Of a DNA stretch of 64,000 nt, positions 37,365-38,604 are shown in pieces (within the stretch, counting starts at the first letter, position 1; every line of letters begins with the position of its first letter). The DNA is from Pseudomonas viridiflava (GTDB lineage: Bacteria > Pseudomonadota > Gammaproteobacteria > Pseudomonadales > Pseudomonadaceae), in contig NZ_RBTP01000022.1 in assembly GCF_003702045.1 (NCBI RefSeq), forward strand, positions 1-64,000, read 5' to 3'. The notes beneath the pieces are model-generated. The model did no database searches. It was not told the origin of the DNA and worked only from the letters and a program-made list of their open reading frames with translations. The position numbers and the translations under genes were made by a program.

Positions 37365-38075
37365 ATGACAGACCCCATTCGCCTCTCCAAACGCCTCATC
37401 GACCTGGTCGGCTGCTCCCGCCGAGAGGCCGAACTGTTCATTGAGGGCGGCTGGGTCACTGTGGATGGCGTGGTTGTCGATGAACCGCAATTCAAAGTCG
37501 AGAACCAGAAGGTAGAACTCAGCCCTGAAGCCAAGGCCGACGCGCCGGAGCCGGTCACTATCATTTTTCACACACCCGCCTCGATGACGGCCGAAAGCGC
37601 GTTGCAGACGATCACGCCCGGCACGCTCTCCGAGGAACACAGCTACGGCAAGCGTCCGCTCAAGGGGCATTTCCTGCGCCTTGAAGCAATCTCTAGCCTG
37701 CAGGCCAATGCCAGCGGCCTGATGGTGTTCAGCCAGGACTGGAAAATCCTGCGCAAACTCACCGATGACCGCAGCAAGATCGAACAGGAATACGTAGTGG
37801 AAATCGCTGGTGAGATGGTGCCTCACGGCATGAATCGCCTGAATCACGGCCTGACGTACAAGGGCAAGGAACTGCCGAAAGTGAAAGCCAGCTGGCAGAA
37901 CGAAAACCGCCTGCGTTTCGCCATGAAAAATCCACAGCCAGGCGTTATCGCCCAGCTCTGCGAAGCCGTTGGCCTGAAGATTATCTCCATTCGCCGTATC
38001 CGCATCGGCGGTGTGTCAATGGGCAAGTTGCCTGAAGGGCAATGGCGCTACATGACGACCAAGGAAAAGTTCTAA
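37365..38075 (+). CDS. RsuA/RluF-type pseudouridine synthase-like protein lacking the catalytic Asp
   Basis: The 236-residue protein has an N-terminal S4 RNA-binding domain (LSKRLIDLVGCSRREAELFIEGGWVTVDG split over 7-35) and a pseudouridine synthase fold ending in LKIISIRRIRIGGVSMGKLPEGQWR, the normal RsuA-type tail. The catalytic loop, usually R-L-D-x-x-T-x-G-L, reads SSLQANASGLMVFSQD: the Asp position is Gln113 (codon CAG) and the preceding Arg is Ser. All pseudouridine synthases use that Asp, so this protein should not isomerise uridine by the known mechanism. It may be an RNA-binding paralogue. The frame is intact, so it is unlikely to be a simple pseudogene. Confidence 0.82.
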   Translation: MTDPIRLSKRLIDLVGCSRREAELFIEGGWVTVDGVVVDEPQFKVENQKVELSPEAKADAPEPVTIIFHTPASMTAESALQTITPGTLSEEHSYGKRPLKGHFLRLEAISSLQANASGLMVFSQDWKILRKLTDDRSKIEQEYVVEIAGEMVPHGMNRLNHGLTYKGKELPKVKASWQNENRLRFAMKNPQPGVIAQLCEAVGLKIISIRRIRIGGVSMGKLPEGQWRYMTTKEKF

Positions 38076-38142
38076 CCCTCCTTCACACAGCGCGCACGAC
38101 GTCGTCGTGCGCCGTCAAATGACTTACAGGATTGCACCCCTC

Positions 38143-38604
38143 ATGATGAACAACGATGTATTGCGCAGCGTGCGCTACATGCTCGATATCAGCGACAGCA
38201 AGATCGTCGAGATCACCCAACTGACCGGCTTTGACGTTTCCAAGAGCGACGTCATTGCGTTCATGAAAAAAGAGGAAGAGGAAGGTTATCTGGATTGCAG
38301 CGATGAGATCATGGCGCACTTCCTGGACGGCCTGGTCTACTTCAAACGCGGCAAAGACGAGAGCCGCCCGCCACAACCGATCGACCTGCCGATCACCAAC
38401 AACATCGTGCTGAAAAAACTGCGTGTGGCCTTCGAACTCAAAGAAGACGACATGCACGCAATCCTCAAATCCGTGGATTTCCCGGTGTCCAAACCAGAGC
38501 TGAGCGCCTTGTTCCGCAAGGTGGGTCACACCAACTACCGCGAATGCGGCGACCAGTTGCTGCGTAACTTCCTCAAGGGCCTGACCCTGCGCGTGCGCGG
38601 CTGA
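38143..38604 (+). CDS. YehS-like DUF1456 protein
   Basis: The 153-residue product consists of two tandem DUF1456 repeats: NDVLRSVRYMLDISDSKIVEI..LTGFDVSKSDVIAFMKKEEEEGY and NNIVLKKLRVAFELKEDDMHAIL..VDFPVSKPELSALFRKVGHTNYRECGDQLLRNFLKGL. The family is widespread in gammaproteobacteria and its function is not known. Two consecutive ATG codons at 38143 and 38146 are possible starts. It lies 13 bases before trmO, so the two are probably co-transcribed. Confidence 0.88.
   Translation: MMNNDVLRSVRYMLDISDSKIVEITQLTGFDVSKSDVIAFMKKEEEEGYLDCSDEIMAHFLDGLVYFKRGKDESRPPQPIDLPITNNIVLKKLRVAFELKEDDMHAILKSVDFPVSKPELSALFRKVGHTNYRECGDQLLRNFLKGLTLRVRG

Follow-up and report, generated by a model that had tools for sequence, protein, structure and literature searches.

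Loss of the catalytic residue set in an S4-containing pseudouridine synthase homologue of Pseudomonas viridiflava: a probable pseudoenzyme that may act by binding structured RNA

The window analysed here is a 64,000-nucleotide stretch of Pseudomonas viridiflava DNA (positions 1 to 64,000 of contig NZ_RBTP01000022.1). It carries a gene for a pseudouridine-synthase-like protein, termed the window protein below, which lies in the order radical-SAM/TRAM gene, GNAT acetyltransferase gene, window gene, DUF1456 gene and trmO, followed by a ferredoxin-reductase-like gene on the opposite strand. Judging from their domains, and partly from general background, we take the first of these genes to be rimO, the last to be fpr and the set to be translation-linked. 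The features of the locus are collected in Table 1. A promoter scan returned no promoter-like sites, and the four terminator-like sites, a number near the shuffle mean of 3.0, all lie on the minus strand.

Table 1. Features of the window gene, its product and the downstream region (window coordinates)
Feature	Position	Strand	Basis
Gene for pseudouridine-synthase-like protein, 236 aa	37365..38075	+	exact ORF; full-length orthologues found
S4 domain, residues 16-46, Pfam PF01479	37410..37502	+	27.2 bits against a cut-off of 22.8
Ser111-Leu112-Gln113 replacing Arg-Leu-Asp (RluB 108-110)	37695..37703	+	alignment; codons AGC (Ser111, 37695-37697), CTG (Leu112, 37698-37700), CAG (Gln113, 37701-37703)
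Gln141-Glu142-Tyr143 at the position of the K/R-x-Y motif	37785..37793	+	Tyr retained, Lys/Arg gone
Residues 191-197, Gln-Pro-Gly-Val-Ile-Ala-Gln, against RluB 192-198, Arg-Asn-Arg-Glu-Val-Arg-Arg	37935..37955	+	alignment
Hairpin in the 67-nt spacer preceding the DUF1456 gene	38092..38112	+	folding; no T run
DUF1456 gene, conserved downstream neighbour	38143..38604	+	PF07308, 195.5 bits

The window protein is an S4-containing homologue of the RsuA/RluF-type pseudouridine synthases, and with both the S4 domain and the synthase fold present it belongs to the RsuA/RluB/RluF superfamily by descent. The Pfam PseudoU_synth_2 match, at 21.0 bits, falls below the cut-off of 26.8. The NCBIfam matches are likewise all sub-cut-off and include TIGR00093 and the RluF, RsuA and RluB models, with the RluF equivalog NF007784 scoring 46.2 bits against a curated cut-off of 318. 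A sequence search of the PDB gave RluF as the best match (E = 2e-9), with RluB and RsuA also at the top. The nearest named orthologue among the loci fetched, from P. viridiflava, is 96% identical, and one on a P. putida contig (L051) is 84% identical.

An AlphaFold2 model of the window protein, made with a 62-sequence alignment, has a pLDDT of 77.2 and a pTM of 0.60, and residues 93-112, including residue 111, lie below a pLDDT of 50. The top Foldseek matches of the model are RsuA (E = 4.6e-13), RluF and RluB, although the TM-scores over the full length reach only 0.41-0.48. A second structure aligner paired it with RluB at a Z-score of 12.3 (195 residues, rmsd 11.4) and with the RluF catalytic domain at 11.4 (153 residues, rmsd 4.3). 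In this predicted structure the domain folds are recognised, and the relative placement of the domains is unreliable. The S4 domain and synthase fold are thus shared with RluF (23S rRNA pseudouridine 2604 and tRNA-Tyr pseudouridine 35), a top fold match, and the architecture and fold are shared with RluB (23S rRNA pseudouridine 2605) and RsuA (16S rRNA pseudouridine 516).

The active site is a different matter. When the window protein is aligned to RluF, RluB, RsuA and RluE of E. coli and to the RluB, RsuA and RluE homologues of the same genome, Ser111 and Gln113 fall on RluB Arg108 and Asp110, and Gly193 in motif III occupies the position of the catalytic Arg194, the adjacent arginines being lost as well. 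Gln141 stands in place of RluB Arg138. Among the features that mark membership of the enzymes, the equivalents of Asp110, Arg108 and Arg194 are therefore absent, and only that of the active-site Tyr140 (Tyr143 here) is present. RluF keeps Arg-Leu-Asp, Lys-x-Tyr and NRQIRR, whereas the window protein does not; RluB and RsuA, each with a separate homologue in the same genome, keep Arg-Leu-Asp and motif III. In the available text of PMC3919597, Asp110 and Arg194 are named as catalytic in RluB, the base-flipping Arg is described as essential in both RluB and RluA, and Asp mutants of TruA, TruB, RluA and RsuA are cited as inactive. According to the same text, RluB R108A has 0.6% activity, RluB Y140F about 3%, and Arg variants of RluA are inactive.

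An earlier note on this DNA had claimed that Ser-Leu-Gln, with CAG at codon 113, replaces Arg-Leu-Asp, and the ORF, codons, alignment and matched loci all bear this out. The note also called the S4 domain and the remaining fold intact, which is right as far as the fold goes; the arginines of motif III, however, have disappeared too, as has the Lys/Arg of K-x-Y. Gln is found at position 113 in 111 of 112 matched loci (the window locus being counted twice), the sole Asp belonging to a RluE homologue (L006), and because the matched loci share the residue Gln113 is not a sequencing slip. An assembly or frame error was likewise ruled out by full-length orthologues with the same residue. At 114 loci encoding 236 residues with >75% identity, a set that counts the window locus more than once, codon 113 is CAG in 76 and CAA in 38.

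The wider alignment comprised 124 rows: 117 relatives left from 229 candidates after thinning at 88% identity, and seven references (RluF, RluB, RsuA and RluE of E. coli MG1655 and the three homologues from the window genome). Before thinning, the own-paralogue locus (L006) was removed, along with two duplicate entries for the window locus, and the distant family loci in the set were 40 chosen from the listed places, then 20 more. Rows were divided by residue 111 into 41 canonical rows with Arg (34 fetched loci and the seven references) and 83 rows without it, termed Arg-less; since site 111 defines the groups, it is no independent evidence. In the Arg-less rows this site holds Pro (56), Ser, Thr or Ala (seven each) or other residues (six).

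The remaining catalytic positions separate the two groups. Canonical rows have Asp at 113 throughout (41/41, no variation); their position 141 is Lys in 39 and Arg in two, and their position 193 is Arg in 39 and His in two. Arg-less rows carry Gln (68), His (12) or Glu (3) at 141, and Gly (71), Asp (6) or other residues (6) at 193, where Arg occurs in 0/83; Arg is present at 196 in 14/83 and at 197 in 5/83, never at both. Tyr143 is retained in 67/83. Site 113 is Glu in 34 rows, Gln in 31, Asp in eight, Pro in seven and Leu, Val or Gly in one each, which requires 16 or more changes inside the group; its entropy, at the 61st percentile among sites, is that of an ordinary position. These alignments indicate that the position of the catalytic Asp is no longer constrained in the Arg-less group. 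The suggestion in the earlier note that orthologues be aligned for a conserved Gln, as the sign of a distinct family, is borne out only near at hand: Gln is fixed in close Pseudomonas orthologues, and in the wider group its place is taken by Glu, Asp, Pro, Leu, Val or Gly as well. The variation of site 113 among Arg-less rows rules out Gln as the defining residue, and, as judged from the sequences, the mark of the family is instead the loss of the catalytic set. The Asp-bearing orthologues that the note had named as a refuting case do occur (8/83), but all eight are without Arg at 111 and 193, and an Asp by itself is therefore not enough to restore the active site.

The 83 Arg-less rows make up one side of a single branch in a maximum-likelihood tree built from all 124 rows; this branch has support of 100/100 and was recovered in every one of the 200 bootstrap trees. 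It is long, at about 1.0 change per column (0.81 and 0.23 on either side of the midpoint root), and the four E. coli enzymes fall opposite the group. The tree was built on all columns, site 111 included, but one column in 244 cannot by itself carry the 100/100 support. Long branches were flagged for L232, L195, L192, L211, L191 and the RsuA homologue of the window genome. The closest active-looking relatives in the set are a canonical sister group of 29 rows from other Proteobacteria (for example L218-L221), which are about 32-39% identical to the window protein and keep both Arg and Asp in 29/29. In the tree the canonical group with L218, L219, L220, L221, L223 and L224 stands apart from E. 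coli RluF, RluB, RsuA and RluE. Four rows from other families (L161, L167, L178 and L179) nest within the Pseudomonadaceae rows, L161 and L179 grouping with same-genus rows with support of 100/95; this nesting suggests horizontal transfer.

Compared pairwise with 48 Pseudomonas orthologues, the window gene gives a median dN/dS of 0.086 (range 0.033-0.14), with dS below 1.5 in all pairs and near 1 in many. Such values indicate that the gene is under strong purifying selection and is not decaying.

Within the Pseudomonadaceae, stop-free matches were found in 143/198 genomes and 13/19 genera (E ≤ 1e-40). Among the matches listed there is one per genome, all at 3.7e-57 or better, and the best sister-enzyme match to the window query is weaker, at 9.2e-47. 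An order-wide draw (E ≤ 1e-15) gave 22/293 genomes, 13 from the family itself and nine others, the latter comprising four Arg-less members (G325, G387, G503 and G541) and five RluF-like proteins. Class (28/321 genomes) and phylum (56/349) draws, both at E ≤ 1e-20, mix Arg-less proteins with canonical sister enzymes.

The window genome encodes one homologue each of RluB (59% identical to that of E. coli), RsuA (47%) and RluE (59%). Nothing in it exceeds the RluF model cut-off, which is passed in 0/99 Pseudomonadaceae genomes and in 1/14 control genomes. The canonical sister query found 0/99 Pseudomonadaceae genomes at E ≤ 1e-55, in a genome set containing no positive genome. In a stand-in control the same query, run against proteins, placed 29/29 sister rows at 2e-58 or below and the best Arg-less row at 4e-52, protein-set E-values that are not equivalent to those of the genome search. 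Outside the family, eight genomes (G1037, G1152, G1069, G1087, G1059, G1191, G683 and G799) carry a sister enzyme alongside an Arg-less member, and the Arg-less group is therefore a separate paralogue line. Simple replacement of a lost sister enzyme was also considered and rejected: the sister is found in 0/99 genomes of the family, yet these eight genomes elsewhere carry both.

DUF1456 is the next gene in 80/80 close loci. It also adjoins 16/72 distant Arg-less loci, on the same strand and 19-136 nt from the aligned start, three of them in other families (L161, L167 and L179). It adjoins 0/34 canonical loci, a count of adjacency and not of presence elsewhere in those genomes. Another method gave 15 loci with this neighbour cluster, 14 of them on the same strand, in a set that departs from the 16 by a few loci. 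The model of the DUF1456 protein is all-helical with two repeats (pLDDT 93.9). A PDB sequence search gave no useful match, Foldseek gave none at E ≤ 0.001, and the best row of the second aligner, a repressor domain at Z 7.0, is below trust level; the model weakly suggests a helix-turn-helix-like protein.

Taken together, these data very probably mean that the window protein has lost catalysis, as the earlier note had proposed. This is strongly supported because one strongly supported group, under purifying selection, has jointly lost the residues that match Arg108, Asp110 and Arg194 of RluB. The best explanation, to which we give a probability of about 0.55, is a pseudoenzyme with structured rRNA or tRNA as its ligand and perhaps a role as an RNA-folding or ribosome-assembly factor. 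With the catalytic set gone, pseudouridine would not be made by the known mechanism. Structured RNA would instead be gripped by the S4 domain together with the cleft of the synthase fold, the target most likely being an rRNA or tRNA stem-loop like those of RluF and RluB, and the protein would act by binding alone. RNA binding as such is plausible, and an assembly or chaperone role exerted through it, argued from precedents and from the retained S4 domain, has about even odds.

Catalysis-free roles of RNA modification proteins are already known. In the available text of the respective reports, TruB is a tRNA chaperone that relieves a growth defect even when inactive (PMC11301382), PUS1 serves as an assembly factor for the mitoribosome while its pocket faces away from the rRNA (PMC13294482), and inactive RlmB aids 50S assembly (PMC11194073). 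These give precedent for a binding or folding role apart from chemistry, but TruB, PUS1 and RlmB remain enzymes, whereas the Arg-less group as a whole appears to be without chemistry. In the E. coli 50S assembly work, as far as its available text goes, inactive RluC gave no rescue and expression of RluB, RluE or RluF had no detectable effect (PMC11194073). This counts against the pseudoenzyme explanation, as do the frequent retention of Tyr143, the eight rows with Asp113 and the low pLDDT of parts of the model.

The charge of the S4 segment (residues 1-60) also argues against a stronger RNA binder, being opposite to expectation: the mean net charge is -3.2 in the 83 Arg-less rows against +0.9 in the 29 sister rows, and it is -4 in the window protein. 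The protein might therefore work chiefly through protein partners, for instance by serving RluB, the DUF1456 protein or a ribosomal protein as a decoy or platform, and RNA binding would then come second. The conserved DUF1456 adjacency would fit, as would the conserved residues specific to the group, which include Ser176 and Lys188. The S4 match above the Pfam cut-off and the net positive synthase domain of the group (mean +6.4) point the other way, and on balance we consider a primarily protein-based role unlikely.

The spacer hairpin raises another possibility, that the window protein regulates its own transcript, binding the hairpin and tuning expression of DUF1456 and TrmO. As it has no T run, the hairpin is not a classic terminator. 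In 31 Pseudomonas spacers the consensus stem has six pairs, four of them with changes on both sides, and folding is stronger in the spacers (median z -1.19) than in two control stretches (0.38 and 0.14), as measured with single-base shuffles and with some spacers, including that of the window, shortened. The conserved position of DUF1456 would suit such control. However, the covariation was counted without a shuffle control, one consensus pair is broken or gapped in 8/31 spacers, and the stem is absent from several distant spacers (for example L150, L156 and L167). Moreover, 56/72 distant loci lack the DUF1456 neighbour, and the hairpin may be a mere transcript-stability or termination-like element. 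Autoregulation is accordingly improbable.

It is more doubtful still that the window protein remains an active synthase in which Glu, Gln or another residue has taken over from Asp. In 73/83 rows site 113 carries a polar or acidic residue (Glu, Gln or Asp), Tyr143 persists as noted above, and Leu112, Gly118, Leu119 and the shared Arg211 and Arg213 remain conserved in the Arg-less group. Against this, site 113 is Pro, Leu, Val or Gly in ten rows, the equivalents of Arg194 and of the group-defining Arg108 are missing in 83/83, and the Arg mutants of RluB and RluA are nearly dead, as given in the available text of PMC3919597. A decaying gene or an assembly artefact would fit the loss of catalytic residues taken alone, but the low dN/dS, the stop-free matches in 143/198 genomes and the same residue in 111 loci make it virtually impossible.

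No description of the Arg-less family was recognised among the open-access papers that the literature searches listed. The gene is not treated in the available text of PMC13236023, PMC13062092 or PMC7822408, and RluF and RsuA are absent from the main text of the first of these. It is conceivable, though quite unlikely, that an old and widespread family of pseudo-pseudouridine-synthases in Proteobacteria has come to bind RNA hairpins without modifying them and in Pseudomonas serves or controls the translation-linked DUF1456-TrmO set, perhaps through the covarying hairpin.

Overall, the pseudoenzyme reading has two consequences for the family. Its members are likely to have been named pseudouridine synthases by similarity, so that a modification may be wrongly credited to these bacteria. 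A group that appears to be without chemistry and yet is under strong selection would also be a natural way to test whether RNA modification enzymes owe part of their importance to RNA binding.
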